Shown in pieces: positions 3,549-32,143 of a stretch of 32,143 nt of DNA. The stretch covers positions 1 through 32,143 of the forward strand of contig JAGGXR010000005.1 in the NCBI GenBank assembly GCA_021162935.1, in the 5' to 3' direction. The notes under the pieces are model-generated. The model was not told where the DNA came from. It saw only the letters and a list, made by a program, of their open reading frames with translations, and did no database searches. Each line of letters starts with the position of its first letter. The first letter of the stretch is position 1. The stretch is from Deltaproteobacteria bacterium (GTDB taxonomy: Bacteria; Myxococcota_A; Polyangia; HGW-17; SLPX01). The translations under genes were made by a program, and so were the position numbers.

Positions 3549-4258
3549 GTATCCGTGCCGTGGTCGGGGCTCCACCTCGGCTCATGCAATATATTCTCGA
3601 GAAATGGCGGAAGGCCTTGCTGCGGCCGCACTTCTTTCATTCCGTGCTTCTTGCCCTGGTTCTGTTCTATTTTGCCATCTCGTTCATGCTCAATTGTGCA
3701 CGGTATGCAGAGACCTATCCGTACACACCGCGCATCCATGATTTTCTGCTGAACCTGCTTCCTGTCGTGGACATGAATGCGTTTGCGACTTTCGGAATCG
3801 AGTTGTTCATTTGGACCTTCTATTTGATGACGCTCATTTTTTTCCCGGAGCGATTTGCGTTCGTCATCAAGACCTTTGCCGTCTTTAAGATCGCCCGGGG
3901 CCTCGCACTCGTGATGACCCATCTCGGTCCGCCACTTTGCATGCTCGAAGATGGCTATCCTGGGTCTACCTTTGGAGGTATGTTTTTCACAAAGGATTTG
4001 TTCTTTTCAGGCCACACCGGGTACCCGATTTTGGCGGCCGTGCTGTTCTGGGATATACCCTGGATGAGATGGATTGGGCTCACGGTAGGGTTGATGCTTG
4101 GGTTCTCGACGCTGCTCATGCACGACCATTACACCATTGATGTTTTCGGTGCCATCGTGACGACGCCCGTTGCCTATTTCATCTCGAGGTGGCTGTTCAC
4201 CACCGATTACCTGGCGGGTGTCGATCCCTACCGTCCCGTGGTGCGGCAGGTCGAGTAG
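3530..4258 (+). CDS. Sphingomyelin-synthase-like / PAP2-C membrane phosphotransferase
   Basis: This is a 242-residue polytopic membrane protein with about six helices. It has the two signatures of the sphingomyelin/inositol-phosphorylceramide synthase branch of the lipid phosphatase superfamily: FFSGHTG (His162) and HDHYTIDVFGA (His200 and Asp204). The His/His/Asp set, and the His-to-Asp spacing of four, match the catalytic triad of sphingomyelin synthases. Such enzymes move a phospho-head-group from a glycerophospholipid to an acceptor lipid. The GTG at 3530 is chosen for a GAGG seven bases upstream. Following ino1 in the same operon, it could transfer phosphoinositol to a ceramide- or diacylglycerol-type acceptor. 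The substrate is inference; a plain lipid phosphatase remains possible. Confidence 0.8.
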   Translation: MSEKALSIRAVVGAPPRLMQYILEKWRKALLRPHFFHSVLLALVLFYFAISFMLNCARYAETYPYTPRIHDFLLNLLPVVDMNAFATFGIELFIWTFYLMTLIFFPERFAFVIKTFAVFKIARGLALVMTHLGPPLCMLEDGYPGSTFGGMFFTKDLFFSGHTGYPILAAVLFWDIPWMRWIGLTVGLMLGFSTLLMHDHYTIDVFGAIVTTPVAYFISRWLFTTDYLAGVDPYRPVVRQVE

Positions 4259-5400: not shown

Positions 5401-5772
5401 ATGAGGCGAGTGATGTTTGGCGCAGCGATGCTGCTCGTTTGGTCCGGTGCAATGGCCTGCGGACCGAAGGTGGATTGCGCCGCCCTGAACAAGAAATTGG
5501 ACACCTGTGCGGAAAGTCTCGTCTGGTCGCTCAAGGCGAAAGCCAAGGAAAATTTTGATAAGAATCCTTCTGATGAGGCGAAACAGAAGCTTGCCGCGAC
5601 GGTGGCTGTCTTGCGCAAGAAGCTCAAGGCGGAAGTCTACGAGCCTTGCAGGAAGAATCATGGAAAGGCGAAGGATGCGAAGCAGGTGAACGCCTGTTTG
5701 GCGAAGAAGTCGTGTGACGATTTTGCCGCCTGTTTCGTGAAGTACCTAACTGTCAGGAAAAAGCAGAAGTGA
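5401..5772 (+). CDS. Small lysine-rich lipoprotein
   Basis: The protein is 123 residues starting at the ATG at 5401, which follows GGAGGAGATCGAAACC and begins a lipoprotein signal ending in SGAMAC-G. The mature part is highly charged (many Lys, Ala and Glu), predicted helical, with about six further cysteines that could form disulfides. It begins 56 bases after the HTH gene and could be cotranscribed. The function is not recognised. It converges on the L,D-transpeptidase gene; a T7 run lies downstream at about 5802-5808 without a convincing stem. Confidence 0.75.
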   Translation: MRRVMFGAAMLLVWSGAMACGPKVDCAALNKKLDTCAESLVWSLKAKAKENFDKNPSDEAKQKLAATVAVLRKKLKAEVYEPCRKNHGKAKDAKQVNACLAKKSCDDFAACFVKYLTVRKKQK

Positions 5773-5901
5773 GCCTCTGAGGGTAAGAGACATCGGCCTT
5801 TTTTTGACTCGTGACCGGTCTGGTCCTGCGACGTGATGCCGTGGCGTTGTTTTCCCTTCTGTAGAAAATGATGGGTGGGACAGGAGACGCTGGCGATCGA
5901 T

Positions 5902-7422
5902 CTATTTCTTTGTCTTGAGGATGCGAAGGCTCTTTTGTCGCATCCGTTCTCGTCTGGCCTCGTCGAGCGCGCGAACAGCTTCGGGCGGGGCGAGTTCTCG
6001 TGCGTATCCATGGAAGGGCGGAAAATGGGTGATTTTATGCCGGACACGGACGATGGTCCCTGGGGCCTTTGCATTCATTCGGCGATTGAGCCAGCCGGCC
6101 GGTACAGGCTGTTCGGTCCAATCGTAGAGCCACTTGGCATCCATGGGTGAAAGGTTCACGCAGCCGTGGCTGCGTCGGTTGCCGAAGTCGTTGTGCCAGT
6201 ATGCGGCGTGGAGCGCCTGACCACGCCAAAAGAACTGAGCCCAGGGCACATCGTCCACGTGGTAGAATTCATTTCCGGCCATGCCAGACGTCATGTCTGT
6301 TTGGGATTTCTTCCACCAAATTCGAAAGATGCCGTACTTCGTGGGATGTCGCTTGTCCCCCGACGAGATCATGGTCATGTAGACAGGTTCGACTCCCTCG
6401 TATGCGACGAGGCTCTGCTGTGCGACCACGATTTCGATCCATTTTTCACATTCTTTGACGCCTGGGGGCGGCTTGCTGGGCCAGGCCGAGATGACCCGAC
6501 GAGCGAGAATCCAGCCGGGCTTGATGCGGTAGTACTTCGTGATTCCGACTTTGGCCTTATCGAGGATTTCCCAGTGGCTGTGATGTGGGACGCGTGAAAC
6601 CTCTCTTCCTCCCGGCTTGTCGTAGATGGCGGCTCCGCGTGTTTTCGCCCGGACGATGCAGAACGGAAGTTTGAAGTGACCCGCGCGCATGTCTACTCCA
6701 TGGAACTTGGAAACCTGGAAACGCAGCAGGGCGGCAGCCTTGACGAATACTTTCTTTGAAATGAGCCAATAGGGCGCACCGGCGATGGAGTAGGTCTTGA
6801 CCCAGCGAACCAGGGTGCCACCTCGAAGATGACCGGATGGATGATTCGCCTTGACGTCATCCTGCGAGCGAAAGACAGATGCACCCGATGCGCGCATCCA
6901 TGCGTATTTCCCAGGAATGATGTGGCCGGGCTTCATGATCGGCTGGATTTTGAGAAGCGGTTCACGGCGGTCCGGCCGTAGATCGTCTCCGCAGAGCCAC
7001 GCGCCTTCATCCAGTTTGAGCCAGAACTTGTTGCACCCTGCTCCCCTCGGTCGATACGGTAACAGAGGCAATCGGGAGACCATTTTGATTTCTCCCATTT
7101 CCGGGGCGTGGATGTCCGGGGTCTGCCGCACCGTGGCCTTGACCATCACCTTGAGGGATCGCGCCCAGGAGGGCAAGATGCGTGCGACGCTCGGCAGCCG
7201 TTCCGGTCGTGGCCTCGGGCGGGGTCGGTTGGCGCATTTCGATTGGACGTGACCTGGCTGTGCCTGACCAGCCTCCTTATTGGCTTCTTTCGAGTGGCCG
7301 CGTTTCGTCTTGTGGCAGGATGCGGCGCCCAGAGACAGGACGATCACCCCGAGGACCGACAGGAGGGCGCCTGCTGGATGCAATCTTTTTGTTTTGCTTT
7401 CTTGTCGTGTTCTCGTGTTCAT
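5902..7422 (-). CDS. L,D-transpeptidase (YkuD family) lipoprotein
   Basis: The 506-residue protein has a lipoprotein signal (hydrophobic residues 17-34, lipobox ending AASC), a long central region of about 270 residues that includes SH3-like segments, and a C-terminal YkuD domain. The catalytic signature reads HAAYWHNDFGNRRSHGCVNL, with the nucleophile Cys421 in SHGCVN. Such enzymes cross-link peptidoglycan stem peptides (3-3 links) or attach lipoproteins to the wall, using a cysteine that beta-lactams other than carbapenems largely spare. The protein is very basic at its C-terminus. No clear ribosome-binding site precedes the ATG at 7422, but no better start exists before the signal peptide. 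Confidence 0.9.
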   Translation of the reverse strand: MNTRTRQESKTKRLHPAGALLSVLGVIVLSLGAASCHKTKRGHSKEANKEAGQAQPGHVQSKCANRPRPRPRPERLPSVARILPSWARSLKVMVKATVRQTPDIHAPEMGEIKMVSRLPLLPYRPRGAGCNKFWLKLDEGAWLCGDDLRPDRREPLLKIQPIMKPGHIIPGKYAWMRASGASVFRSQDDVKANHPSGHLRGGTLVRWVKTYSIAGAPYWLISKKVFVKAAALLRFQVSKFHGVDMRAGHFKLPFCIVRAKTRGAAIYDKPGGREVSRVPHHSHWEILDKAKVGITKYYRIKPGWILARRVISAWPSKPPPGVKECEKWIEIVVAQQSLVAYEGVEPVYMTMISSGDKRHPTKYGIFRIWWKKSQTDMTSGMAGNEFYHVDDVPWAQFFWRGQALHAAYWHNDFGNRRSHGCVNLSPMDAKWLYDWTEQPVPAGWLNRRMNAKAPGTIVRVRHKITHFPPFHGYARELAPPEAVRALDEARRERMRQKSLRILKTKK

Positions 7423-13270: not shown

Positions 13271-14254
13271 TTACGTGGTCGGGACGACTTCTTCGTGTCT
13301 CAGGCTGAAGAGGGCCAACAGACCGAGTCCGAGCAAGACGAGTGCCACCACTCGGAGACGCCGCAGGACTTCCATCGCAAGTCCGGTGGTGGCCGTGAGA
13401 CCGAGATACGGGAAGAGCAGGAAACTCGCCCCTTCGTTGGCGCCGAGTTGGGAGGGGATGAAGGCGAACAGGACGTAGACGATGAGGCTCGTGGCCTGAA
13501 TGAGGAACGCTGTTTGGGGGGACATCCACTGTCCCATGACCGCCAGGATGACCCAGACCTCCATGATCGATAGGCTTCGTCCGAAGAACACCCACAGAAA
13601 GGCGCCGTAGAAGGCAGCGGGATGGTGGGTTCGAAACTGGCGGACGAGAACGTCAGCCTTGCGGGCTTTTGCCAACACGTCGTCGGCATTCTTGAAGCGG
13701 ATGTGAAGGCGTGCCAGCAACCGAATGAATTTTTCCGATAGACCACGATGGACGAGCCAGATGCCGATGAGAACCGGGACGGCGACCGCAAGGGTCGTGC
13801 CCACCAGGATCCACGTGAGCCGCGTGGGAAGGTCCAGTAGAAAAATGGCCAAGGTGACGCCCAGTACGATCAGCAGGAGGTTGGAAAACCAGTAGAGGAT
13901 GTTGTGGAGCAATACCGTGGACAGGAGAGCCTCTGGGGATGCCCGGTCTTTGAGGAGCGTCGCTTTGACCGGTTCACCTCCCATGCTGCCAGGGGTCAGA
14001 AAGTTGATGGCTGCCCCGACGATGGAGGCTCCCACCAGTTCCCACAGACCGGCGGTGCCGCCCTCTGCATCGAGCAGCAGCTTCCAACCAATGGCCATGA
14101 CGACGATGGAGGCCAGCGCCACCGCTACGACGGCGGCGAACCCCCATCCTGCATGAGCCAGGTCCGACAGGAGCCGTCCCGCTCCGACCCGGTAGATTAG
14201 GTAACTCGCCAGAACGACGCCAATCACCAGGAATAGAGCGTGGAGACGTTTCAT
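13271..14254 (-). CDS. Flippase-like membrane protein (LPG synthase TM / UPF0104 family)
   Basis: The 327-residue integral membrane protein has about eight hydrophobic helices. It carries the family landmark INFLTPGSMGGEPVKATLL (about residues 87-105), and later a PSQLGANEGASFLLFPYLG-type segment, as in the membrane half of MprF and in bacterial and archaeal homologues thought to move lipid-linked substrates. There is no soluble aminoacyl-transfer domain. It starts two bases after the end of the aminoethylphosphonate aminotransferase fusion gene, so the two are translationally coupled, which suggests that it handles a lipid bearing the head group made by that enzyme. The transport role is known for only a few relatives. 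Confidence 0.88.
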   Translation of the reverse strand: MKRLHALFLVIGVVLASYLIYRVGAGRLLSDLAHAGWGFAAVVAVALASIVVMAIGWKLLLDAEGGTAGLWELVGASIVGAAINFLTPGSMGGEPVKATLLKDRASPEALLSTVLLHNILYWFSNLLLIVLGVTLAIFLLDLPTRLTWILVGTTLAVAVPVLIGIWLVHRGLSEKFIRLLARLHIRFKNADDVLAKARKADVLVRQFRTHHPAAFYGAFLWVFFGRSLSIMEVWVILAVMGQWMSPQTAFLIQATSLIVYVLFAFIPSQLGANEGASFLLFPYLGLTATTGLAMEVLRRLRVVALVLLGLGLLALFSLRHEEVVPTT

Positions 14255-14256
14255 TG

Positions 14257-16155
14257 CTACTTGCGAGCTTGGGCGACCCGTTCGAGCGCGTAGAGCCTCG
14301 GCCGGGCCGCGGCTCGATTCTTGGCCTGATGGAACACCATGTTCAAGGCGTCCAGGAATGCGTCGATGGTCTCGTTGTTCAGGTCTCCCATATTGGCGAC
14401 CTGGAAGTAACGGTCTTGGAGGTGCTCCTTACTGTTGTAGATGAGGTACCCTCTTCGTTTCATTTCATCGTAGAGTTCTGGGAAGGTGATGTAGTCGGGC
14501 ACCTTGACGCAGGTGATGGTCGATGATTCGCGTCCCGTCTCCGTCAGGAAGGACAGCCCCATTTTCCGAAACGCCTTCCGGATGCGTTGATTGCGCTCTC
14601 GATACATGGCGTAACGCCGCTGGAGGCCGTCGGCCAAGAGTTCATCGATTGCCGCATCCAAGGCGAAGAAGCTCGAAACGGCTGGTGTGAACGGCGTTTC
14701 CTCTTTCTCGACGGCGTACTTTCGATAGCGTTTCAGGTTCAGATAGTACACCCTCGGCGGCACGTCTTCGATACGGTCCCAGGCTCGTTTGCTTACGCAC
14801 ACGGCGGCCAGGCCGGAGATGGCGTGCAGGCATTTGTTTGCTGATGAGACGCAAACGTCGATCTTGTCACGCGTGACGCTGACGTCTTCGGCGCCGAGGC
14901 TCGCTACCGTGTCCACGATGAAGAGCCGATCAGCGGATCGGACGATGACACCGACTTCGTGGACCGGATTGAGCAGCCCGACGGACGTTTCGTGGTGGCA
15001 CATGGCAACGGCGAAGATGTCCGGATCCTGGTCCAGCGTGCGTCTTACGTCGTCGAGGTTCACTGATTCGGCCCATTTGTAATGGAGGGTGACCAGATTC
15101 ATCTGGTGAAGAGTGGCGATTTCGATGAAACGCTCTCCAAAGGCTCCGTTCGAAATGACGAGCAGTTTCTTGTCGCGAGGCACGCAGGAACTGACCGCCG
15201 CCTCCATGCCGGATGTGCCCGAACCGGTCAGAACCACGACTTCGTGTTCCGGACCGCCGTCGAATACTTTCCGGAGCTTTCTGCGGAGGCGCCGCACCAC
15301 CTTGGGAAACTCTCCATCTCGATGACACACGTCATGGTGGACCAGTGCGCTCTTGACCTTGGCCGTGGTGAGTACGGGGCCCGGGTTCATCAGGGTGAAA
15401 TGAAGACCATTTTTTTCATTCAGGATTCCCTCGATGTAGCTCAGCACCCTCGTAGATTCCTTGGGCCCCGTTGGTCCACATTTCGGTCCATGAGCCAAGA
15501 GGGTCTCCATGCTTTTACGGGTTACCGGATTGCGATGCGGGCTTTTCCACTGGTCCGACCTCGCGCTGAAGGTTTCCATCCGGGTGGATGCCGCCATGGC
15601 CTGGAAGGTCTCCCAGGCGGACACCGGATGTCCGTTTTCCAGGCGTCTCAGAGTCGTAAAGAAGGAATTTCCGACCACGAACCACCCAAGAGCCGTGGTG
15701 CCGCCATCCATGGTCCCCTCTTCTTCCAGGGCGATGACGCGGGTTCCGTCCAGGTTGGCAATGGGTAGATTTGCATGGATTCCTGAGCGATCCACCAGGG
15801 CACAAGACCCATCTTTGTCTACCGGCCAGGTGAGTAACTCGGCGATGAGTTCTGGTGTGGGTACGGCTTCGGGATAGACGAGTAGGACCGGTCGGCCTTC
15901 GACATGCGTGGAGACGTCTCGCAACGCAGCGCCCTGAGGGCGGCCAGGCAGCCAGGAAACTCGATCGGTCAAATCGGCTTCGGCTGCTGCCTGTCTCGTG
16001 GCAGCAGAGTCTTGGTCGCCCAGGAAGAGGACTCGTTCGATTCCTGCTCGTTCGAGGCTCGACAGAATCCAGGGCAACATGGCCCGAGAAGCAGTGGTTT
16101 GATGCCCGTACGGTGCATCGAAGAGCAGAACAGCAGTGTTGATTCGCAGCGGCAT
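14257..16155 (-). CDS. Degenerate nucleotidyltransferase fused to 2-aminoethylphosphonate-pyruvate aminotransferase
   Basis: The protein is 632 residues, with GGAGG eight bases before the ATG. Residues of about 260-610 are a fold-type I PLP enzyme matching 2-aminoethylphosphonate:pyruvate transaminase (PhnW): MNPGPVLTTAKVKSAL, GSGTSGMEAAVSS, VDTVASLGAEDV and the PLP-lysine motif SSANKCLHA (Lys441). Residues 1-240 look like a sugar/inositol-phosphate nucleotidyltransferase (AVLLFDAPY, SSLERAGIERVLFLG, ALVDRS, GWFVVGNSFF) but lack the usual GxGxR nucleotide loop and its following Lys. Fusions of an AEP cytidylyltransferase (PntC) with the aminotransferase are known in Treponema and serve phosphonolipid head-group synthesis. 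Here the first domain may be inactive or altered. PEP mutase and decarboxylase are not encoded in the window. Confidence 0.85.
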   Translation of the reverse strand: MPLRINTAVLLFDAPYGHQTTASRAMLPWILSSLERAGIERVLFLGDQDSAATRQAAAEADLTDRVSWLPGRPQGAALRDVSTHVEGRPVLLVYPEAVPTPELIAELLTWPVDKDGSCALVDRSGIHANLPIANLDGTRVIALEEEGTMDGGTTALGWFVVGNSFFTTLRRLENGHPVSAWETFQAMAASTRMETFSARSDQWKSPHRNPVTRKSMETLLAHGPKCGPTGPKESTRVLSYIEGILNEKNGLHFTLMNPGPVLTTAKVKSALVHHDVCHRDGEFPKVVRRLRRKLRKVFDGGPEHEVVVLTGSGTSGMEAAVSSCVPRDKKLLVISNGAFGERFIEIATLHQMNLVTLHYKWAESVNLDDVRRTLDQDPDIFAVAMCHHETSVGLLNPVHEVGVIVRSADRLFIVDTVASLGAEDVSVTRDKIDVCVSSANKCLHAISGLAAVCVSKRAWDRIEDVPPRVYYLNLKRYRKYAVEKEETPFTPAVSSFFALDAAIDELLADGLQRRYAMYRERNQRIRKAFRKMGLSFLTETGRESSTITCVKVPDYITFPELYDEMKRRGYLIYNSKEHLQDRYFQVANMGDLNNETIDAFLDALNMVFHQAKNRAAARPRLYALERVAQARK

Positions 16156-20396: not shown

Positions 20397-21692
20397 ATGT
20401 CACTGGTTACTATCAAGATCAACGGAAGCGAAGTCCAGGTGGAACAAGGAGAGGCCATCTTAGGGCCGATTCGTGCTCAGGGAATCAAGGTCCCCACGTT
20501 GTGTCATATGGATGGTTTGGAGCCTTACGGTGCCTGTCGCCTGTGCATGGTGGAAGTGGGCGCCGGTAAGCGGACCAAGCTCGTGACGTCCTGTAACTTT
20601 CCCGCCAACGAAGGGCTCGAGATCCAAACGGACACGGAACGCGTTCATCGTCACAGGGCCATGCTGGCCGAACTGTTGTTGGCCCGTTCTCCCCACGTCA
20701 AGGTGGTTCAAGACATCGCAGCTTCTCTGGGAGTGGAGAAAGCGCGTTTTACCGACACGGAGGAGAGCGATTGCCTCCTGTGCGGACTCTGTGTCCGCGT
20801 TTGTGACGAAATCGTGGGAGCGTCCGCCATCGGGTATGAGGGGCGCGGTGTCGATCGTGTGGTCGGTACGCCATTCTACGTGAATCCGGACGCCTGCATC
20901 GCTTGCGGTGCCTGCACCGAGGTGTGCCCTACGGGCCTCATTCAAATGGAAGAACAGACCAAGGAGCGTTGGCGCAAGGAACTTAGCGGCAACGAACGGA
21001 TTTGTCGATACAGCAGAATGGGTGTGGTTTCCGCCAAGGTGTGCCCGCACAACTATGACTGTGCCACCTGCGAGGTGGACCAGAGCATCTGGGATGAGTT
21101 CGGCATGAACGCCATGCTGGCCTTGGCGCCAGGCAAGCGCCGTAAGCCAGAGAAGGTTTCACACTTCTTCGTGGTGGAGGATCGCTTCTACTCTCGGGGG
21201 CACACCTGGGCAAAACTCAAGGGCGATCATGCCCGGGTGGGGATGGACGACTTTGCCCAGAGAATCGTGGGACAGGTCTCGACGGTCACCCTCACGGCCA
21301 AGCCTGGAGACGTGGTGCAGAGCGGACAAGCTGCTCTGACCGTGGCCAGTAACGGCCATCAGGCGAACATGGTGTTTCCCGTGTCGGGCAAGGTCATGCG
21401 CGTCAATCCTCTCTTGGAAGACGATCCGACGGTGATCAATGACGACTGCTATCAGCGGGGGTGGCTCTATGTGCTGGAGCCTCAAGATAGTTACGAGGAA
21501 ACGCGCAAGCTGGTCGACCCGGAACATGCCGACCAATGGCTTTTGGCTGAGGCGGACGACCTGTTTCGTACTTTGAGCGCGAGCGGTGGTGCGGCGTTGT
21601 CCGATGGTGGTGAATTGCTGCCCAATTTTGCAAGCAACCTCGACAAGGAAAGCTGGGACCGTGTGGCCAAGCGTTTCTTTTCAAAGGTGTGA
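20397..21692 (+). CDS. NuoG/HoxU/HndD-N-like ferredoxin subunit with Cys-motif and degenerate H-protein domain
   Basis: The 431-residue protein has a good start (GAAGGAG upstream). Residues 1-75 form a plant-type 2Fe-2S domain (Cys36, 47, 50, 66). Two 4Fe-4S motifs follow (Cys126/129/132/136 and Cys167/170/173/177). The His/Cys cluster site that usually sits between them in NuoG and HndD is absent. Residues 203-225 hold a C-x12-C-x5-C-x2-C motif. Residues of about 260-365 resemble glycine-cleavage H protein (RGHTW, VGMDDFAQRIVGQV, FPVSGKV), but the lipoyl-lysine position is Gly. The tail is shared with the protein ending at 29826. It probably carries electrons to or from the HndC-like subunit encoded downstream. 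The catalytic hydrogenase domain of HndD is missing. Confidence 0.88.
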   Translation: MSLVTIKINGSEVQVEQGEAILGPIRAQGIKVPTLCHMDGLEPYGACRLCMVEVGAGKRTKLVTSCNFPANEGLEIQTDTERVHRHRAMLAELLLARSPHVKVVQDIAASLGVEKARFTDTEESDCLLCGLCVRVCDEIVGASAIGYEGRGVDRVVGTPFYVNPDACIACGACTEVCPTGLIQMEEQTKERWRKELSGNERICRYSRMGVVSAKVCPHNYDCATCEVDQSIWDEFGMNAMLALAPGKRRKPEKVSHFFVVEDRFYSRGHTWAKLKGDHARVGMDDFAQRIVGQVSTVTLTAKPGDVVQSGQAALTVASNGHQANMVFPVSGKVMRVNPLLEDDPTVINDDCYQRGWLYVLEPQDSYEETRKLVDPEHADQWLLAEADDLFRTLSASGGAALSDGGELLPNFASNLDKESWDRVAKRFFSKV

Positions 21693-21723
21693 GTGAGTTT
21701 GGCGGTGCCCGAAGAGGTGTATC

Positions 21724-22671
21724 ATGTCCGAAAAGAAAACGAATGAGAAGAAGCTCGAACCCATGTCGTCGGGACAGTGCATATGGGTCGATGCGGGCGT
21801 GATATCGTACAGACTGTGCACGCTGAATTATGACTGCGAGCACTGTTCGCTCCACCAGGCTTTGATCGATGGGCCCGTGCAGGTCCCAACTCCGTCCGTT
21901 CCTGCTTTGAACTACAAGGAGACAGAAGAACGACGGGCGGAGTTCGACCGGTTGTTCCACAAGTTGCCGGCTGCTGCTCGCAAGTGCCGCTATATGCTGA
22001 CGGGCGATGTGTCTTACAAGTTGTGTGTCGATCAGTTCAAATGCGCGAGTTGTTCCTTTGGGCAGATGATGGAAGATACGCTTGCGGATGAAGACGTTCC
22101 CGGCCTTGGTGAAGGTGACGTGCTGACCATCGCAGGACTTCGTTTTGCCGGCGGGGTACATTATCATAGAGGCCACCTGTGGGTTCGCGTGGAACGGGCG
22201 GGCAACGTGTGCGTAGGGTTGGACGACTACGGTCAGCAGTTGCTCGGTCGCATTGTGAACGTGCATCTGCCAGTCGCCGGACGGCCGATCTTCGAGGGCG
22301 CTTCGGCCTGCGACCTTCGTACTGAGCAGGGGGGCATCGAAATCCCGACACCGATATCAGGGCAGGTGATCGCCCGGAACACGAGGTTGCTCGAACAGCC
22401 TGGGCTGGTCAACGAATCGCCTTACACCGGTGGTTGGCTGTACCGTGTCAGACCTTCCAATTTGCAGTTCGAGTTGGCGAGTCTCCTATATGGCATGGAG
22501 GCCAAGAGGTGGTTCGAACTGGAAATCGAACGTGCAAAGGAAAGACTCCAGCAAACGGATCGAAATCAAGCGAACCTCACCACGATCGAAAAAGGCGCGA
22601 TTTGGCGGACAAATCACGATTCTGAAATGGTCAGCGAACTTCTACTTGCAACGTCGAAAAAGGCGGCCTGA
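21724..22671 (+). CDS. Double Cys-motif protein with degenerate H-protein domain
   Basis: The protein is 315 residues with no signal or membrane segment. It has two copies of the C-x12-C-x5-C-x2-C motif: Cys19/32/38/41 (starting CIWVDAGVISYRLC) and Cys88/101/107/110 (starting CRYMLTGDVSYKLC). An H-protein-like domain of about residues 140-255 follows, with RGHLW at 149-153, VGLDDYGQQLLGRIV and the PISG turn; the lipoyl-lysine position is Gln. The C-terminal tail contains the AKRWFELE segment seen in its relatives. The cysteines could bind a metal or FeS cluster. It lies 31 bases after the ferredoxin-like gene in the sigma-54 operon. The role is unknown; an electron-carrier or assembly scaffold is inference. 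Confidence 0.8.
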   Translation: MSEKKTNEKKLEPMSSGQCIWVDAGVISYRLCTLNYDCEHCSLHQALIDGPVQVPTPSVPALNYKETEERRAEFDRLFHKLPAAARKCRYMLTGDVSYKLCVDQFKCASCSFGQMMEDTLADEDVPGLGEGDVLTIAGLRFAGGVHYHRGHLWVRVERAGNVCVGLDDYGQQLLGRIVNVHLPVAGRPIFEGASACDLRTEQGGIEIPTPISGQVIARNTRLLEQPGLVNESPYTGGWLYRVRPSNLQFELASLLYGMEAKRWFELEIERAKERLQQTDRNQANLTTIEKGAIWRTNHDSEMVSELLLATSKKAA

Positions 22672-22703
22672 GTTGTTCCCGCTTGTGCAGAGACAAGGAG
22701 GAG

Positions 22704-23201
22704 ATGGATAAGATGGAAACAGGGTTCATTGATGTTGATGCGGTGGATAAGATTATCGATCGTTGGAAATACGATCCGAGCTATTTAATCGAAATGCTTC
22801 AGGATATTCAGGGGCATTTCCGCTACATCCCCAAAGAAGTGGCACAGAAGTTGTCTGACGATCTGGATGTGCCCTTGAGTCACATCTTCCACATTGCGAC
22901 CTTCTACAAGGGGTTTTCCCTGGAACCACGCGGTAAGCATCCCATCTACGTTTGTACCGGCACGGCCTGCCACGTCAAAGGCGGGGGGCGTATCTTGGAG
23001 AACGTCATGCGTGAACTCGGCGTGACCAAAGAGGGTGAAGCAACCGAAGATTTGTTCTTCAGCGTTGAATCAGTCCGCTGTCTCGGTTGTTGTGGTTTGG
23101 CACCGGTCGTCGAGATCGACGACGAGGTGTACGGACATACATCCACTGTGGAAGTGAGCAAGATCCTGAGCAAGATGCGAAAAGCCGAACAACCCGAGTA
23201 G
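22704..23201 (+). CDS. hndA: NuoE/HndA-like thioredoxin-fold 2Fe-2S subunit
   Basis: The protein is 165 residues, matching the 24-kDa NuoE family: helical N-terminus (YDPSYLIEMLQDIQGHFRYIP), SHIFHIATFYKGFSLEPRGK, then CTGTACHVKGG and RCLGCCGLAPVVEI. Cluster ligands are Cys84, 89, 126 and 130. It forms the electron-input pair with the NuoF-like subunit, taking electrons from flavin. The ATG at 22704 is used; AAGGAG lies close to it, and the second ATG at 22713 is possible. The symbol is by analogy with the NADP-reducing hydrogenase subunit HndA. Confidence 0.9.
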   Translation: MDKMETGFIDVDAVDKIIDRWKYDPSYLIEMLQDIQGHFRYIPKEVAQKLSDDLDVPLSHIFHIATFYKGFSLEPRGKHPIYVCTGTACHVKGGGRILENVMRELGVTKEGEATEDLFFSVESVRCLGCCGLAPVVEIDDEVYGHTSTVEVSKILSKMRKAEQPE

Positions 23202-23223
23202 CGATCCCATTTGGAGGCAATCG

Positions 23224-23607
23224 ATGTTCAAACTGAGAATTGAAGACCTCGACAGGATTGCCGAGGAAAACAAGAAGACCATGTCGTTACGGCACGGGGC
23301 CGGACGGGTCAAAATCACCGTGCACATGGGCACCTGCGGTATTGCGGCAGGGGCCAGGAACATCATGGCCGAGGTCATGCGCTGTGTCGGAGAGTCAGGC
23401 GCGAGCGACATTATCGTCACGACCTCCGGTTGTGCAGGGCTGTGCAGTCGTGAGCCCATGATGACCGTCGAAGTCACCGATCAGGCTCCCGTCAAGTACA
23501 TCGACCTCGACAAGAAGAAGACAAAACGGATTTTCGACGAGCATGTCATGAAGGGCAACATCGTTGAGGAGTACGCGTTGGCCATGGGAGGAGAACGGAC
23601 GTTATGA
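23224..23607 (+). CDS. hndB: HndB-like 2Fe-2S thioredoxin-like ferredoxin
   Basis: The 127-residue protein resembles the small ferredoxin subunit HndB and the homologous N-terminal domain of HndC. It has VHMGTCGIAAGAR (Cys38) and TTSGCAGLCSREP (Cys70, Cys74), then VKYIDLDKKKTKRIFDEHVMKG. Three of the four expected ligands are visible in place; the missing second cysteine (Ala in GIAAGA) is, as far as I recall, usual in HndB. GGAGG lies eight bases upstream. The end overlaps the start of the next gene by four bases, so synthesis is coupled to that of the flavoprotein. Confidence 0.85.
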   Translation: MFKLRIEDLDRIAEENKKTMSLRHGAGRVKITVHMGTCGIAAGARNIMAEVMRCVGESGASDIIVTTSGCAGLCSREPMMTVEVTDQAPVKYIDLDKKKTKRIFDEHVMKGNIVEEYALAMGGERTL

Positions 23608-25472
23608 GCGAAACACCGAGCAAGAACGAACAGAAGCCACCTGTCGGCGATGTTTCGAGCAGCAGCCGCATGCAGCTCATGTTGTGTGGTGGAACCGCCT
23701 GTGTTTCCAGTGGTTCCGTCAAGGTGAAAGCAGCCTTGGAACGTGAGTTGGCGAAACATGATCTGACCGACGAAGTGGACGTGGTCGTCACAGGTTGTAA
23801 TGGATTTTGTGCCAAGGGCCCGGTGATGGTCGTCCAGCCTGACGGCATTTTTTACCAGGAACTCAAGGAGAAAGACATCCCCCATTTGGTCGAGGAGCAC
23901 ATGCTCAAGGGGCGGCCGGTCGAGAAACTCATGTACAGCCCGCCGGACAAAAAGACGGCTGTTCCGACAATGAGCGAGATCGGCTTCTTCAAGAAGCAGC
24001 GTCTTGTGGCCCTACGGAATCGTGGTTTGCTCGATCCGGAGTCCATCGACGAGTACATTGCAAGAGACGGCTACAAGGCTCTTGCCAAGGTACTCTCGGA
24101 GATGACTCCCGAGGAAGTCATCGATGAGATGATTGCGTCCGGACTGCGTGGCCGTGGAGGTGGTGGTTTTCCGACTGGTATCAAATGGAAGACCTGTCGC
24201 ATGGCAGCCGGTGAGCCCAAGTACGTGGTCTGCAACGCAGACGAAGGAGACCCGGGCGCGTACATGGACAGGAGCATCGTCGAGGCCGACCCGCACGTCG
24301 TGCTCGAAGGGATGGCCATCGCCGCCTATGCCGTTGGGTCCAGCAAGGGGTATGTCTACATCCGTCACGAGTATCCTTTGGCTCTCAAGCGGCTGCAGAA
24401 GGCCATGGAAGATGCGAGAGAATACGGCCTTTTGGGTAAGAACATTTTCGGCAAGGGATTCGATTTCGACATCAGCATCCACTTTGGTGCCGGCGCGTTC
24501 GTGTGTGGAGAGTCAACGGCGCTCATGGCATCCATGGAGGGTCACGTCGGAGAACCCAGGGCCAAGTACATTCATACCGTGGACCATGGCCTGTGGGACC
24601 GGCCGACGAATCTGAACAACGTCGAAACCTACGCCAACGTGCCGGTCATTATTTTGCGTGGCACCAAGTGGTTCACGTCCATTGGAACCGGTGACGTGAG
24701 CAAGAGCCCCTGGGGCGGGAGCAAGGGCACCAAGGTTTTTTCGCTCGTTGGCAAGGTGAACAACACCGGTTTGGTCGAAGTTCCGATGGGGATCACCTTG
24801 AGGGAGATCATTTTCGACATCGGTGGTGGCATCCCCAATGGAAAGAAGTTCAAGGCGGTGCAGACCGGCGGGCCTTCGGGGGGGGTGCTTCCCGAAAGTT
24901 TGCTCGACATCCCGGTGGATTTCGATCAACTCACTAAGGTTGGTTCCATGATGGGATCGGGCGGCATGATCGTCATGGACGAAGACGACTGCATGGTCGA
25001 TATCGCTCGCTACTACATCGACTTTCTTGCCGGCGAGTCCTGCGGCAAGTGTGTTCCTTGTCGTGAGGGGCTCAGACAGATCAACAAGATGCTCACCGAC
25101 ATCTCCAACGGCGAGGCCGAAGAGGGTGTCCTTGAACTGCTCGAAGAAACTGCACATACCGTCGCTGAAACATCGCTTTGCGCGTTGGGTGGATCGGCGC
25201 CCAACCCGGTTCTTAGCACCTTACGGTACTTCCGGGATGAGTACGAGGCTCATGTTCGCGAAAAGAGGTGTCCCGCCGGTCTGTGCAAGAACCTCGTCAC
25301 CTACTCCATCGATCCCGTAAACTGCAATGGATGTACATTGTGCGCTATCAAGTGCCCACAGCACGCCATTACGGGTGAGAGAAAGAAGGTGCACACCATC
25401 GATACGAGTCTGTGTATCAAGTGCGGCATCTGTAGGGATGTCTGCAAACAGGATGCCGTCATCGTGAAGTAA
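23604..25472 (+). CDS. hndC: NuoF/HndC-like NAD(H)-binding flavoprotein with extra ferredoxin domains
   Basis: The 622-residue protein has three parts. Residues 22-110 are a thioredoxin-like 2Fe-2S domain (Cys28, 33, 65, 69). Residues of about 125-560 are NuoF-like: GRGGGGFPTG (183-192) for NAD/FMN, CNADEGDPGAYMDR, CGESTALMASMEG, the SLBB segment, and the 4Fe-4S site ESCGKCVPC with Cys480, 483, 486 and 526. The C-terminus has two 4Fe-4S motifs starting at Cys574 (CNGCTLCAIKC, CIKCGICRDVC). The layout matches HndC/HydB of multimeric, often electron-bifurcating, NAD(P)-linked hydrogenases. The GEST motif differs from the GEET of standard NuoF. It should oxidise or make NAD(P)H and exchange electrons with the ferredoxin-like subunits in the operon. 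Confidence 0.93.
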   Translation: MSETPSKNEQKPPVGDVSSSSRMQLMLCGGTACVSSGSVKVKAALERELAKHDLTDEVDVVVTGCNGFCAKGPVMVVQPDGIFYQELKEKDIPHLVEEHMLKGRPVEKLMYSPPDKKTAVPTMSEIGFFKKQRLVALRNRGLLDPESIDEYIARDGYKALAKVLSEMTPEEVIDEMIASGLRGRGGGGFPTGIKWKTCRMAAGEPKYVVCNADEGDPGAYMDRSIVEADPHVVLEGMAIAAYAVGSSKGYVYIRHEYPLALKRLQKAMEDAREYGLLGKNIFGKGFDFDISIHFGAGAFVCGESTALMASMEGHVGEPRAKYIHTVDHGLWDRPTNLNNVETYANVPVIILRGTKWFTSIGTGDVSKSPWGGSKGTKVFSLVGKVNNTGLVEVPMGITLREIIFDIGGGIPNGKKFKAVQTGGPSGGVLPESLLDIPVDFDQLTKVGSMMGSGGMIVMDEDDCMVDIARYYIDFLAGESCGKCVPCREGLRQINKMLTDISNGEAEEGVLELLEETAHTVAETSLCALGGSAPNPVLSTLRYFRDEYEAHVREKRCPAGLCKNLVTYSIDPVNCNGCTLCAIKCPQHAITGERKKVHTIDTSLCIKCGICRDVCKQDAVIVK

Positions 25473-25644: not shown

Positions 25645-27600
25645 GTGACGACTTCGAGGAACAGAGTCTGGCTCCGTCTGACGATAGGGTTTGTCGCCAT
25701 CATTATGGTGACCAACGTCGCCGTGTTTGTGGTCACCGTTTTCGGTGCGAAGAGGATCATTACCGAAGAGGCTCAGAGCCGTGTTCGCATGGATCTGAAT
25801 TCGGCGGACAGGGTGTTTGAGGAGCATGCAGCGGATATTTGCCTTCTGCTTCGGGGGGCTTCAGTGCGTCGCAATGTCCCTAGCCCACTGAGAGGTTGGA
25901 ACAAGAAGGATCTGCATGGATTCCTGGCGAGCGTTCGAAAAGCCGGGGGGTTGGATGTGCTGTCGCTGCTGGATAAGGATGGCCGAGTCGTCTATCGGGA
26001 GCACAACCCGGGACAGATGGGCGACGACATGTCGCATAATAGCATCGTTGTCCGGGCATTGGGACGGAAAGGGTGCGTCCACGGTATCGCGATCATCCGG
26101 CATATGGACTTGGAACGAGAAGGCAGCGATCTGCTTCATAGGGCATCTCTCAGGACCAATTCCAAAATCGGCCAGGCCGCAGCAAGGAGAATCCATCATG
26201 ATGGCATGATCATTGGGGCGGCGGTGCCCCTCGTGGATTTGCGAAGGGGGGGCGGAGTCGTGGGGTACCTGTATGGTGCGAAACTCCTAAACGACAGCTC
26301 CACGATTGTGGATGAGATCAAAGAGGATTTGTACAAGAGCAGCGCTGGTGTCGAGAAAAACCTGGGAGTCGTTAGCATTGTTCAGGGTGATGTCCGTGTG
26401 TCCACCAGTATGAAAACGAATTCTGGCCTGCGACCTGTTGGGACGCTTGTGAGCCCTACGGCTACCAAGAACGTGTTGAAAAAGAACAAGCCTTGGGTCG
26501 GCCGAGCTTTTGTGGTCAATGACTGGTACATTAGCGCCTATGCGCCAATTCGCGATCCCGAAAACAAGGTCATTGGAATGGTGGCCGTTGGTATGCGGGA
26601 AAAGCCGCTGCTCCGCAATTGGAAACGCGCAGCCTGGATTTTCCTTGGTGTGGTGTCGGTCCTGACCATTGTCAGCCTCTTGCTGTTGGCGCTTATGGCG
26701 AGAACTATTTTGTATCCCATTGCGCAGATTATCGACATGTCCAAGAAGGTTGTATCAGGCGACCTATCCATCCGATTGAAGGTGCGGCCTCCTGGTGAGT
26801 TGGGGCTGCTTTGTATAGCAGTCAACAAGATGGCCGACGCTGTGATGCAAAGGGAGGAGTCCCTGGTGCAGGCAACCTGTCAGCAGGTTGGGCGGAGCGA
26901 AAAGATGGCAGCCGTGGGCCGGATGGCGGCGGGTGTCTCCCACGAGATCAACAATCCGCTCACCGGACTGCTGACGTTGGAGTATTTACTCAAGAAAGAA
27001 GAGGGCCTCAGTGACAAGGCAACAGAATATCTGGACATCATGTACAAAGAAACTCTTCGAATGCGTGAAATCATTCTGAGCCTGTTGAATTTTGCGCACG
27101 AGTCCTCTGTGGAGATGAAGCCCGTGGAAGTGAACGACGTGGGGCGGGACTGGCTCAAGCTTTTGCGGAGCCAGAAAGAATTTAGGAACATTACCATCGA
27201 GGAACATTTTGGAGAGGGGCTGCCGAAGGTCAATGGAGATGCCAACCAACTGCAGCAGGTTTTTGCTAATATTTCTCTAAACGCCTGTGAGGCTATGATG
27301 CCCGATGGGGGTGTATTGACCATTACAACCTTGGAGAAAGAGGGAAAGGTGCAGATTTTAATTCAGGATACCGGCTGTGGAATCAAGGAAGAACACCTCA
27401 AAATGATCTTCGATCCGTTTTTTACGACCAAACCGGTCGGGCAAGGGACCGGGCTTGGTTTGAGCGTGAGTTATGGGATCATCACGAACCATGGTGGGAT
27501 CATGGACGTCAAGAGCCAAGAGGGTAAGGGGACGACTTTTATCATCACGTTGCCGACGGGAGCCCAAGCATCGTCAGGTGATCGACCAGTGGATAGTTGA
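25645..27600 (+). CDS. Membrane sensor histidine kinase with Cache domain
   Basis: The 651-residue protein has one helix at about residues 9-30, an extracytoplasmic region of about 290 residues with Cache-like features ([41 protein letters not shown]), a second helix (about 330-352) and HAMP (about 352-405). It has a HisKA domain with phosphorylated His433 in [12 protein letters not shown], then an ATPase domain with [27 protein letters not shown] and [11 protein letters not shown]. It presumably phosphorylates the sigma-54 activator encoded next. Cache domains often bind small organic acids or amino acids, but the ligand cannot be told. The start is GTG with only weak GGTGG upstream. Confidence 0.93.
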
Positions 27601-27617
27601 CGGAAGAGGAGTCAATC

Positions 27618-28973
27618 ATGCGCAAGAAATTTAGAATCCTCGTGGTTGATGACGAATTTTCTATCCGTGTTTCATTAGGAGATTTGCTGCGACACGATGG
27701 ATATCAGGTCGAAGTGGCCGAGAGCGCCGAGGCTGCCTTGGAGACGTTGAAGACACAGTCGTTCGACCTGATGATGGTAGACATCAAAATGCCAGGGATG
27801 GACGGCCTGGAGATGCTCAAGCAGGTCAAGGAGAACGAGCCCAACGCTACCGTGGTCATGATGACCGCCTATGGTTCTATCGATTCAGCGGTCGAAGCAA
27901 TGAAACTTGGAGCCACCGATTACGTGGTGAAGCCATTCGATCCCGTTAGGATGGAGGCGCTCATCAATCAGGTCTATGAAAACGACTTGATGCAACGCGA
28001 GCGACAGGTTCTTAGGCGGCAGGTCAGAGTATGCGGTTGCTACGGTCCCATGATCGGGCAGTCTCCGCCCATGATGAAGTTGTTCGAACTCGTCGAAGAT
28101 GTCGCTGCTACGGATTCGGTCGTTCTCATATTGGGTGAGAGTGGAACCGGTAAAGAGGTCCTGGCGCGTACCATTCACGAGAAAAGTGCGCGGGCGAATG
28201 GTTTATTCGTGGGGGTCAATTTGGGCGCTTTTACTGAATCGATTCAGGAAAGCGAGTTGTTCGGATATGAAAAGGGAGCTTTCACTGGAGCGAACACGGC
28301 CAAGAAGGGGCTGTTTGAAGTCGCCTCGGGCGGAACCCTGTTTCTGGATGAGGTCGGCAGTGCTTCTCAGAAGATGCAGATAGACTTGCTTCGAGTGCTC
28401 CAGGAACGCAAATTTCGGCGGGTCGGAGGGCTCATTGAGCAAGAGATGGACTTCAGGGTGATGGCGGCCAGCAATCGGGACCTCGAAGAGAGCGTCAAGG
28501 ACGGGAGCTTCCGGCAGGATCTCTACTATCGGCTCAACGTCGTGCAGATTCACATACCTACGCTCCGGGAACGCAGGGAGGATATTCCGGTTTTGGCGAA
28601 GCATTTTTTAGAGGTGATGCGGGTGCGGCTCGGAAAAAAGATCAGTACCATTTCTCCCGAGGCAATGGAGTGCTTGGTCAACTACGATTGGCCGGGCAAC
28701 GTCCGTGAATTGGAAAATGCGATTGAGCGAGCTCTGGTTGTAGGGAAAAGTAAATGGATTGTGCCGGAGGATTTGCCCATTGTGATGAAGCAATCTTTCG
28801 GCGGATCTGCCGATGAGTCCCTGGATGCATGGGAGCGGGACTACATTTCCCGCAAGCTTGAGCAGTATGAGTGGAATATCAGCCGGACGGCGGAGACGCT
28901 CAAGATCGATAGAGGGACGTTGTATGCAAAGATCAAGAAGTACGGCTTGACGTCAGGAGACGGTTCAAAATAG
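27618..28973 (+). CDS. NtrC-family sigma-54-dependent response regulator
   Basis: The 451-residue protein starts at 27618 with AGAGGAG seven bases upstream. Domains: receiver (VVDDEFSIR; phospho-acceptor Asp55 in [12 protein letters not shown] after the conserved Lys), AAA+ domain with Walker [12 protein letters not shown], the sigma-54-contacting loop GAFTGA in [16 protein letters not shown], Walker [10 protein letters not shown], and the arginine-finger region, then a Fis-type helix-turn-helix ([24 protein letters not shown]). It lies 17 bases after the kinase gene. It is the natural activator for the sigma-54 promoters at 20331 and 31734, although its binding sites are not proven. Confidence 0.96.
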
Positions 28974-29243
28974 GGTTGCCAATTTGGGGTGCTGCGGCGT
29001 CCCTTTGGCGCGAAACGACGAGGGTGCGGGTGATGCGCAACCGAGGAGCGACAAAGCCAGAGGGGATGGATCGGCGTTTCAGATGGCAGATGTATTCTCA
29101 TCAGCCGACTAAACTGGGGCTGCCTCGGTTGCGACGGAGATGATCATGGATGCTTCTCTTCATTGGGGTGCGCCGTACAATGTTTATGGCCCGTTTTGTT
29201 TTGGGATGATCAAAGACCTGCCACGTCTCATCGGCGTCCGAAC

Positions 29244-29822
29244 ATGGGTATGACGCTCGTGTCGGATCGCGTGGTAAAAATTGTGCCTCTGGGTCTGTCC
29301 GACGCCGGGCTCATGATGGCCTTGGCCGGGGAACTCGAACGGACGTTCCCGTTTTCATATCGGATTGGCACGGACGAAAAAATGCCCGTGGATGCTTTGG
29401 ATGGAATGAGAGGCCAATATCATGCCACTCGTATTCTTGAACACCTCGTTGCCTCCGATCGGACTGCGTTCCGGATTTTGGGAGTAACGTCATTCGATAT
29501 CTTCACGCCGATATTGCAGTATATTTTCGGGGAGGCAATGCTTGGAGGGAGGGCCGCCCTTGTGTCGACCTATCGGCTCGGCACAGTGCCCTTCGAAGGT
29601 GTCGTGCCCTGTCGTCATGCCGTCTTTGTGGATCGCGTTATCAAGGAAGGTATCCACGAACTCGGGCACACATTTGGCCTCACTCACTGTGACGATCATC
29701 ATTGCGTCATGACTGCCTCACTCACAGTGGGCGACATCGACGAAAAATCAACGCAAATGTGCTACTATTGCCAGATGGCGTTCAAGGATGAGTTGGCGAG
29801 GGCCGGGATTGCTCAATCGTAG
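29244..29822 (+). CDS. amzA: Archaemetzincin-like zinc metalloprotease
   Basis: The protein is 192 residues from the ATG at 29244; the open frame extends to 29163 but that part lacks family-like sequence. The archaemetzincin signature is complete: HELGHTFGLTHCDDHHCVM with zinc ligands His138, His142 and His148 and catalytic Glu139, followed by the structural-zinc cysteines including CYYC near the C-terminus. TPILQYIFGEA and ALVSTYRLG match the conserved upstream parts. Family members are found in archaea, some bacteria and animals, and their substrates are poorly known. There is no signal peptide. No ribosome-binding site is obvious at 29244 or at the nearby ATG 29250. The 270 bases before it show a TACAAT at 29176 and nothing else notable. 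Confidence 0.92.
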   Translation: MGMTLVSDRVVKIVPLGLSDAGLMMALAGELERTFPFSYRIGTDEKMPVDALDGMRGQYHATRILEHLVASDRTAFRILGVTSFDIFTPILQYIFGEAMLGGRAALVSTYRLGTVPFEGVVPCRHAVFVDRVIKEGIHELGHTFGLTHCDDHHCVMTASLTVGDIDEKSTQMCYYCQMAFKDELARAGIAQS

Positions 29823-29825
29823 GCA

Positions 29826-31661
29826 TCATTGGTTGAGGAATTTGTTCAGCACTTCGGACCAACGAACACCGGGGATGCCTGCCAAAGCATCGTGGGCGAG
29901 AGTGGCACCATCCGCGGCGGTTGCGATTTCGTCCTGAAACATTGCTTGTAGTCGAGTGACTTCGTTCTTTTGCCATTGGTGCGCGTTGTCCCCGAACTTG
30001 AGGTCATAGAGGGCGTCTTCGGTCAACGTGGGGCGAATCGTCATGAGCCAACCATCCTCGTATGGTTCGGCTGCGAGGATTCGAGGTGTGTCGATGACTG
30101 CCTGATTGACGATCGCTACCTCGCCATCCATTGGGGAGCAGACTTCCACGGTCTCGTCGTTGCGGATGAGGCGGAGCACAGGTTTTCCCTGGCGCACTGT
30201 TTCGCCGGGTTTGGGCATCTTGATGGCATCCACTTTGCCGATCAAGTGGGCCACGATATCGTCGAGTCCAATGCGGACGGAATCGTCTTTGTCAGGACGA
30301 ACCCAGGAGTGTCCACGATGGTACAGCAGATTGGAGGGCATCTTGCAGCCGAGCAACGTTGGATCCAGAGTTTCCATTTTTTGTGCTGCCTGGTTTTGTG
30401 CGAGAGACTGAAACTGTTTGGGGTCGCGAATGAGGTTATCTGCACCAAGGACGTCCAGCAATGCATTTGGAGCGGTCCGCATGTCACCCAGTTTTTTGAA
30501 TTGTGCCTGGAAAGCATTCAGCACTGCTCTTGAGACCATGGTGCGTTCACTGGTCGTCCAGTTTTGCCCTGAGGTCACGATTCCAGTAAGCAACGTTTGC
30601 GCAGTGATTGCGTCCAACGTTCCTTCCTCGATCATGTGCAACAGTCTGCGTTTGAGCACCAGGCCTGCGTGCGATATTCCTTCATCAGGCACGATGTCCA
30701 CAAAGCGGGAAAGTGTCAGCGCTGCCGATAACTCTGAAGGAGTGACGAGCACGTGATGGTACATTTTGCCGAGGAGATCGCCGGCAAAACTGATAAGGAT
30801 TGCCGCATGTGCCATCGTGTCGTCGCTGATGCGAACCGGTTCATACGTATTCGTTTTCAGGATGTTTTGGACGATCACAGCCTGCCGTGCCAGAGCCATC
30901 GATGGATAGTCGATGGCAGCGATGGACTCGTGCAATTGTCTGAGTACGTTGGCGTCAAAGGTGGGTGTCAGGCCGAGCAGTGCGAGGCCCTGCAATGCTC
31001 GAAGTGCCGCGCGTCGTTCCTCCCAAGATCGTTCCTCGGAGAACGAGTTGGACAGACCGTGTTGCATCAATCCTTGCCGCAACATTGATTCAGCAAATGC
31101 CTTGAGATCGAGCAATTCGAGACAGTCGAGAAACGAGGCTGCCGCCAGCAGGGCAAACTGTTCGTCCACTGTGGCCAATCCCAAATGCTGCGGAGCGAGG
31201 TTTTCCTCTGGTGCGACTTTTCCAAGATTGCGAAGCTCAAAGAGTCGACTGATCAAATCGACATACAGTCCATTTCTGCGGGCGACCTGTTGGATGAGCG
31301 ATGCGTTTGTGCCAATCGACAGGCTTCCGATGCCCGTCGAGGTCAGGACCCGGGAAGCAGCGCTGTTGGTCCGAGACCAATTGGGCATGCACTGAGCCGC
31401 GAACGGACAGGAGCGGCCGGGGCTTGCGCATGCCTTCACGTAACATTGGTCAAAGTAGTTCTTACCGAAGAAGTTCTTTCCCTGATGCGGGGCGAGCTTC
31501 ATGAGGGCGACGTCCACCGGACAGCCAGAGCAGTCATCGGGGCGCGTGTCGCATGTCTTGGACGACACGATACCAGACGAGTTCCAAGGGCATTGGTCCA
31601 GTTCCTTTTTGCCTCCAGTTTTCGTTTCAGTTTTCGTTGTGTCAAAATGAGTGGGCTTCAT
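29826..31661 (-). CDS. Large Cys-motif protein with helical middle domain and degenerate H-protein domain
   Basis: The 611-residue protein starts at 31661, with GGAAAGG eight bases upstream; the open frame reaches further but is non-conserved-looking there. Cys24/37/44/47 form C-x12-C-x6-C-x2-C (starting CPWNSSGIVSSKTC). A second cluster C-x4-C-x6-C-x5-C follows at about residue 68. Residues of about 110-430 are helical and Ala/Leu-rich with no recognised fold. An H-protein-like domain follows (about 443-550) with RGHSW at 449-453, IGLDDIVAHLIGKV and SPMDGEV; the lipoyl-lysine position is Asp. The C-terminal tail (AHQW, ADGATL, W-x2-V-x3-F) matches that of the protein encoded at 20397. It has its own sigma-54-like promoter and probably belongs to the same redox system. 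Confidence 0.8.
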   Translation of the reverse strand: MKPTHFDTTKTETKTGGKKELDQCPWNSSGIVSSKTCDTRPDDCSGCPVDVALMKLAPHQGKNFFGKNYFDQCYVKACASPGRSCPFAAQCMPNWSRTNSAASRVLTSTGIGSLSIGTNASLIQQVARRNGLYVDLISRLFELRNLGKVAPEENLAPQHLGLATVDEQFALLAAASFLDCLELLDLKAFAESMLRQGLMQHGLSNSFSEERSWEERRAALRALQGLALLGLTPTFDANVLRQLHESIAAIDYPSMALARQAVIVQNILKTNTYEPVRISDDTMAHAAILISFAGDLLGKMYHHVLVTPSELSAALTLSRFVDIVPDEGISHAGLVLKRRLLHMIEEGTLDAITAQTLLTGIVTSGQNWTTSERTMVSRAVLNAFQAQFKKLGDMRTAPNALLDVLGADNLIRDPKQFQSLAQNQAAQKMETLDPTLLGCKMPSNLLYHRGHSWVRPDKDDSVRIGLDDIVAHLIGKVDAIKMPKPGETVRQGKPVLRLIRNDETVEVCSPMDGEVAIVNQAVIDTPRILAAEPYEDGWLMTIRPTLTEDALYDLKFGDNAHQWQKNEVTRLQAMFQDEIATAADGATLAHDALAGIPGVRWSEVLNKFLNQ

Positions 31662-31883: not shown

Positions 31884-32143
31884 CTTGGCGGGCAGTAAAT
31901 GGCTGATATTGTCGTAAGTGGCCGTTTTTTTTCGGAATATAACTGTGGCAAAATCCAACAGGAGGAACGAAAAGGCGGCCAAAACGGTACGCAGCTCGCC
32001 CAAGGCCCTCACTGCCTTCGACGCCGCAGTCAGAAAACGAGGCTGAACTGGGAACGTATGGGCCGGCTGCTGCGCAAATACCTGCCCCGCGGGATCCTCC
32101 ACCCTATCCCGAGCAGCCACTGGCCGTCATGACCCAGAGGCAC

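Follow-up and report, generated by a model that had tools for sequence, protein, structure and literature searches.

The window analysed here, the whole stretch of 32,143 nucleotides, carries on its plus strand a series of NADH-oxidoreductase-like and regulatory genes that runs toward one long gene on the minus strand. The series begins with a NuoG/HydA-N-terminus-like subunit (20397-21692) that combines Fer2 and Fer4 domains with a Cys motif and an H-like domain without the lipoyl Lys, and that features no H-cluster domain. It is followed by a protein with a double Cys motif and another H-like domain without the lipoyl Lys (21724-22671), a NuoE/HndA-like [2Fe-2S] thioredoxin-fold subunit (22683-23201), an HndB-like thioredoxin-fold protein (23224-23607; PF01257 just under the cut-off), and a NuoF/HndC-like FMN/NADH subunit with an N-terminal [2Fe-2S] domain and C-terminal 2x[4Fe-4S] domains (23604-25472). 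Profile matches and synteny identify the next three plus-strand genes as an sCache_3-HAMP histidine kinase (HK; 25645-27600), an NtrC-type sigma-54 response regulator (RR; 27597-28973), and an archaemetzincin (M54; 29163-29822). Archaemetzincins form a peptidase family that is known above all from archaea. Convergent with the M54 gene, and transcribed separately from and opposed to the Nuo operon, lies P0001 (29826-31661, minus strand), a 611-aa Cys-Cys-toroid-H protein defined by its open frame and by five full-length homologues. Elsewhere in this one window, inspection by eye picked out inositol-phosphate-synthase-like (1843-3174), PAP2/sphingomyelin-synthase-like (3530-4258), and flippase-like (13271-14254) genes as well as a nucleotidyltransferase-aminotransferase fusion (14257-16155), which possibly serve inositol or phosphonate lipid synthesis.

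The open frame around P0001 extends over 764 codons from a GTG at 32120, and the ATG at 31661 yields the 611-aa product. In each of the five homologues an ATG lies no more than a few residues from P0001 Met1, mostly behind a purine-rich Shine-Dalgarno sequence such as GGAGG, and the P0001 ATG is itself preceded by GGAAAGG. Given the homologue ATG positions and the Shine-Dalgarno sites, the frame upstream of 31661 does not belong to P0001. In the alignment, homology within the family sets in just upstream of the first Cys motif, and a start at 31661, at the cysteine motif, as proposed in an earlier note on this DNA, is therefore borne out. Pairwise identity averages 59% in the toroid and 63% in the H domain, and the alignment is nearly indel-free; this near-gapless conservation indicates that P0001 is a conserved protein rather than a chance frame. 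Its parts follow one another as Cys motif 1, Cys motif 2, a helical domain, a GCV_H domain, and a helical tail, and the motifs, the GCV_H match, and the helical prediction uphold the architecture of Cys motifs, helical middle, and H-like domain that had been read from the sequence before. As modeled, P0001 combines known parts in a new way and does not have a new fold.

Cys motif 1 (residues 24-47; 31521-31592, minus strand) has the form C24-x12-C37-x6-C44-x2-C47. Motifs of this type also occur once in the 20397 product and twice in the 21724 product, there as C-x11-C-x5-C-x2-C, and together with the common H-like domain they substantiate the kinship of P0001 with both. Cys motif 2 (residues 73-91; 31389-31445, minus strand) has the form C73-x4-C78-x6-C85-x5-C91 and is directly followed by an invariant N-W-S-R-T-N. 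All eight motif Cys, plus C180 and C439, are invariant in the alignment of six sequences, and motif 2 is kept even in a relative from genome G214 at about 28% identity. The second Cys cluster noted earlier is thus confirmed by its place among eight invariant Cys, with its position corrected from near residue 68 to 73-91. The Cys regions are of low confidence in the AlphaFold2 models. The N-terminal region might conceivably resemble CODH/HCP; CODH/HCP is absent from the fold-search matches listed for the whole and domain models of P0001, without this speaking decisively against a resemblance. Contig L038, which also carries a P0001 homologue, codes at 3-1631 for a hybrid-cluster protein (Prismane, E 6e-175).

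The H-like domain spans residues 441-556 (29994-30341, minus strand). Pfam GCV_H (PF01597) matches residues 446-557 with an E-value of 4e-19 and 69 bits (cut-off 22.2), and solved H proteins match this domain in both sequence and structure (Z 10-12). In contrast, it fails the GcvH equivalog test, with 62.8 bits against a TIGR00527 cut-off of 115.85, and the H domains of its neighbors also fall far below. With the ordinary GcvH of the window genome as reference (on contig C160, with Lys), P0001 has Asp502 in the column of the lipoyl Lys; its homologues have Gly or Arg there, 20397 has Gly, and 21724 has Gln. Since the Lys is missing, P0001 is not a lipoyl carrier by that site. The domain is followed by a conserved C-terminal helical tail (residues 557-611; 29829-29993, minus strand; ATAADGATLA...W..VL.KFL) that can be aligned with the tail of 20397. 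An H fold is also found in signaling, in that contig L034 encodes a receiver-domain protein (11-1384) within which a GCV_H-like domain (PF01597, E 8.5e-10) is embedded.

Between the Cys motifs and the H-like domain lies the helical domain (residues about 120-415; 30417-31304, minus strand), which is predicted to be a prenyltransferase-beta-like alpha/alpha toroid. Residues 110-430 contain 28% Ala+Leu as compared with 22% in the whole of P0001 and are predicted to be all-helical, in agreement with the Ala/Leu-rich helical middle described before. Two AlphaFold2 models were made from an input alignment of six sequences, one of the whole protein (pLDDT about 80 over residues 150-360) and one of residues 61-436 alone (core pLDDT 80-90, pTM 0.68), and Foldseek candidates were realigned with VIA-align, an aligner with which chance alone can give helical models a Z of about 13-14. 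The best toroid match of the whole model was GGTase3 beta (6o60_B; Z 14.7, rmsd 3.7, 242 residues over 121-412), followed by other prenyltransferases, transcobalamin (Z 11.9), squalene-hopene cyclase (10.3), and the C3 TED (9-10). The model of residues 61-436 likewise matched 6o60_B best (Z 12.2, rmsd 3.5, 216 residues), and then transcobalamin (10.4), C4b (9.6), squalene-hopene cyclase (9.1), and cellobiose 2-epimerase (8.2), with the first non-toroid match at Z 8.7 over 117 aligned residues. These top toroid matches belong to families unrelated in sequence, all of them alpha/alpha toroids, to which P0001 is 7-13% identical. Foldseek by itself is weak for residues 61-436 (RabGGTase beta, probability 0.99, E 0.38), and for the whole model it is dominated by H proteins, the toroid appearing only on realignment. 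Because of these weak Foldseek E-values and the chance level of Z for helical models, we hold it to be likely, rather than certain, that residues about 120-412 of P0001 form the predicted alpha/alpha toroid. The earlier note had seen a domain of unknown fold resembling no family and had looked to structure prediction and a fold search; the coherent toroid match in two models, an outcome of the kind by which the note itself said its description would fall, overturns that description at the level of fold, though not of family or function.

At the sequence level, the toroid matches nothing in Pfam, NCBIfam, or the PDB sequences (Pfam searched to E 1 with P0001 and to E 10 with six members), and PF00432, the prenyltransferase repeat, has no match in P0001 or the six members. 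A DUF6307 match in one member only (E 0.024) was taken as chance. Searched in the six-sequence alignment, the prenyltransferase zinc ligands (D-x-C and His) were not found: the toroid has no invariant His, and its only invariant Cys, C180, directly follows Asp179 and is not in a D-x-C. Nor does the toroid alignment contain the DxDD motif of type II terpene cyclases. Since the searches yield no relative by sequence and neither the zinc His nor DxDD is present, a role in scaffolding or ligand binding is likelier than catalysis for the modeled toroid.

Relatives of P0001 are few. The five full-length homologues, on contigs L034-L038 (L035 being genome G039 of the search set, in which the window genome is G000), are 51-59% identical (52-59% in the best segment) and almost gapless. 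Their MAG labels vary among Deltaproteobacteria, Fermentibacteria, and Lentisphaerota, which may reflect binning or labeling. The distant relative in G214 (about 28%) is split over two contig ends (L064 and L065; G214:C209 and C140) with a frame change near residue 105. A fragment in G516 (L066; G516:C475, about 5600-6700) covers P0001 residues 76-402 with other sequence on both sides; at its 3' end it continues into a histidine kinase gene encoded on the opposite strand, as a result of either an assembly error or a rearrangement. No P0001 relative was found in viral contigs. Among the 317 genomes of the class, P0001-type proteins occur only in G000, G039, and G516, while full-length NuoG-Cys-H fusions occur in these three and in G013. 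The P0001 family is thus present in 3 of the 4 genomes with the fusion and in 0 of the 313 others, as raw counts uncorrected for relatedness.

The gene-neighborhood survey proposed in the earlier note brought out a conserved oxidoreductase, regulator, and M54 context in L035 and L036 and partly in L037 and L038. In L035 and L036 the order NuoG-H/NuoE/Trx/NuoF/HK/RR/M54 converges on the P0001 homologue, and L037 and L038 show the same gene order as far as the contigs reach; a counterpart of 21724 was identified in neither L035 nor L036. M54 is a constant neighbor of the regulator/H-like gene set. The tie between P0001 and the oxidoreductase is not universal, because L034 has no Nuo-like operon on its contig, although the P0001 homologue there adjoins a HydS-like operon, and because only RR, M54, and HK are seen beside the P0001-like gene of G214. 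In G002, the place that corresponds to P0001 is taken by a double-Cys H-like protein without a toroid, which faces M54-RR-HK, and one CPBP-like (CAAX-protease-like) membrane protein gene, seen by eye at L068 7105-8265, stands between the H-like gene and M54. The toroid-less form agrees with the earlier description of the helical domain as inserted, but the N-terminal Cys regions of the two forms differ, so that replacement is as possible as a simple insertion.

On its other side, the P0001 homologue of L034, L037, and L038 adjoins DRTGG, HATPase, HydS-like, DRTGG, PHP, and HATPase genes, which are divergent from it in L034 and L038 and codirectional with it in L037. Upstream of P0001 the window contig continues for 482 bases to its end, and positions 32094-32143 of the window are identical to bases 1-50 of contig C103 (L086), which opens with an operon of the same DRTGG/HATPase/HydS-like/DRTGG/PHP/HATPase order. 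Judging from the sequence overlap, the two contigs probably adjoin; the exact 50-base overlap and the agreeing synteny would then make the HydS-like operon a neighbor of P0001 in this genome as well. The only Fe_hyd_lg_C protein of the window genome is the HydS-like protein of C103 (L086 1068-2423), which features H-cluster cysteines and a C-terminal Cx2Cx4Cx16C motif, as in group D (M2e); a HydS-like homologue has FeS PF04060 and no PAS domain. Group D (M2e) sensory [FeFe] hydrogenases are characterized by the Cx2Cx4Cx16C cluster motif, H-cluster cysteines, and no PAS (PMC8163306). In the window genome, which is 97% complete, HydG has no match, HydF has none over the cut-off, and no catalytic [FeFe] hydrogenase was found. 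The absence of HydG and HydF at this completeness suggests, from gene content, that no [FeFe] hydrogenase is matured in this organism, and the diiron site of the HydS-like protein may never be made. No paper on such an arrangement came up in a literature search covering DRTGG/PHP/hydrogenase clusters and GcvH-like proteins associated with hydrogenases.

Our tentative proposal, preferred while falling somewhat short of an even chance, is that P0001 serves as an accessory, non-lipoylated Fe-S docking subunit of a hydrogenase-less NADH oxidoreductase encoded at 20397-25472. This complex would have the NuoE-NuoF-NuoG core of the Hnd/HydABC type, with the [FeFe]-hydrogenase domain missing and a Cys-motif and H-like module ending the NuoG-like subunit. 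In its favor are the conserved gene order, the co-occurrence with the NuoG-Cys-H fusion, and the modules common to P0001, 20397, and 21724; against it stand the contexts in L034 and G214 and the transcription of P0001 apart from, and opposite to, the Nuo operon. By homology, the NuoF-like FMN would oxidize NADH and the electrons would pass through the Fe-S chain of 20397. P0001 would then dock by way of its H-like domain, common to P0001, 20397, and 21724, and its C-terminal tail, which aligns with that of 20397; since the Lys is replaced by Asp502, the H-like domain would act as a docking fold and not as a lipoyl arm. Each four-Cys motif, as the eight invariant Cys suggest, could bind an Fe-S cluster or zinc, for electron relay or for structure. 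The predicted toroid would serve as the scaffold, with its cavity or faces binding a partner protein or small ligand, and would tie the complex to an acceptor or to the adjacent HydS-like/HATPase/HK-NtrC signaling genes.

Other readings concern either the helical domain or the partners of P0001. The domain may be a generic helical-hairpin repeat, a HEAT- or TPR-like scaffold and no true toroid, as the Foldseek E-value for RabGGTase beta and the Z that helical models reach by chance would allow. However, toroids of different families top both lists over the whole domain (bar the H-protein rows of the full model), well ahead in aligned length of the first other fold in the domain-only list, and the core of the isolated domain is modeled with good confidence, which makes such a repeat quite improbable. 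Equally doubtful is the idea that the toroid has catalytic activity or carries a small molecule, binding a prenyl, terpenoid, or corrinoid compound, with P0001 as a substrate-specific component. Its best structural matches are indeed protein prenyltransferase beta subunits, cobalamin carriers, and type II terpene cyclases, yet the missing invariant His, the C180 outside any D-x-C, the missing DxDD, and the lack of a sequence match to those families all speak against it, and the toroid fold is used for many unrelated functions.

The main rival to the subunit proposal is a signaling partner, in which the Cys clusters would sense redox, the toroid would bind HATPase, DRTGG/PHP, or M54, and the signal would pass to the HK/NtrC pair. 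The DRTGG-HATPase-HydS-like-DRTGG-PHP-HATPase operon next to P0001 in L034, L037, and L038, and probably here, fits such a role, as do the RR and M54, then HK, that adjoin the P0001-like gene even in distant G214, and the receiver-domain/H-like fusion of L034. We nevertheless consider it rather unlikely, since P0001 has its Cys and H-like modules in common with the NuoG-like subunit and 21724, which points to an electron-transfer assembly. Unlikely too, on present evidence, is a derivative of a HydS-HydABC system that has lost its H2-reacting domain and acquired Cys-motif/H-like modules instead, with the toroid as a new acceptor-binding or sensing unit and the former H2-sensing circuit monitoring another redox couple. 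In place of a supposed new fold stands a testable picture in which Cys clusters connect a toroid to an H domain free of lipoyl, next to an NADH complex of hydrogenase type but without a hydrogenase. If the association is true, Fe-S oxidoreductases can use H-protein folds for docking, and it can be asked what replaces H2 as substrate or signal in HydS-linked operons.

Several parts of P0001 and of its neighborhood have counterparts among known systems. The glycine cleavage H protein has the GCV_H fold found at P0001 residues 446-557, whereas P0001 has Asp502 for the lipoyl lysine and is flanked by Cys motifs, toroid, and tail. Protein prenyltransferase beta, transcobalamin, the complement TED, and squalene-hopene cyclase have the fold predicted for residues ~120-412, but P0001 lacks the profile match, zinc His, and DxDD of the toroid enzymes and bears its Cys clusters and H-like domain in addition. 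Like the operon at 22683-25472, the Hnd/HydABC bifurcating [FeFe] hydrogenase has NuoE-, Trx-, and NuoF-like subunits in order; unlike it, the operon at 20397-25472 has no H-cluster catalytic subunit, and its NuoG/HydA-N-like subunit ends in a Cys motif and H-like domain. In the sHdr system, LbpA is a lipoate-binding protein (PMC6067878), and while the lysine is absent in the three H-like domains here (P0001, 20397, and 21724), H-like proteins are in both cases encoded together with a complex for Fe-S electron transfer. TamHydS (group D) is located upstream of a heterotrimeric bifurcating hydrogenase and beside an HATPase gene (PMC8163306), and by analogy the arrangement of HydS and NADH module in this genome looks like that of TamHydS without the hydrogenase.
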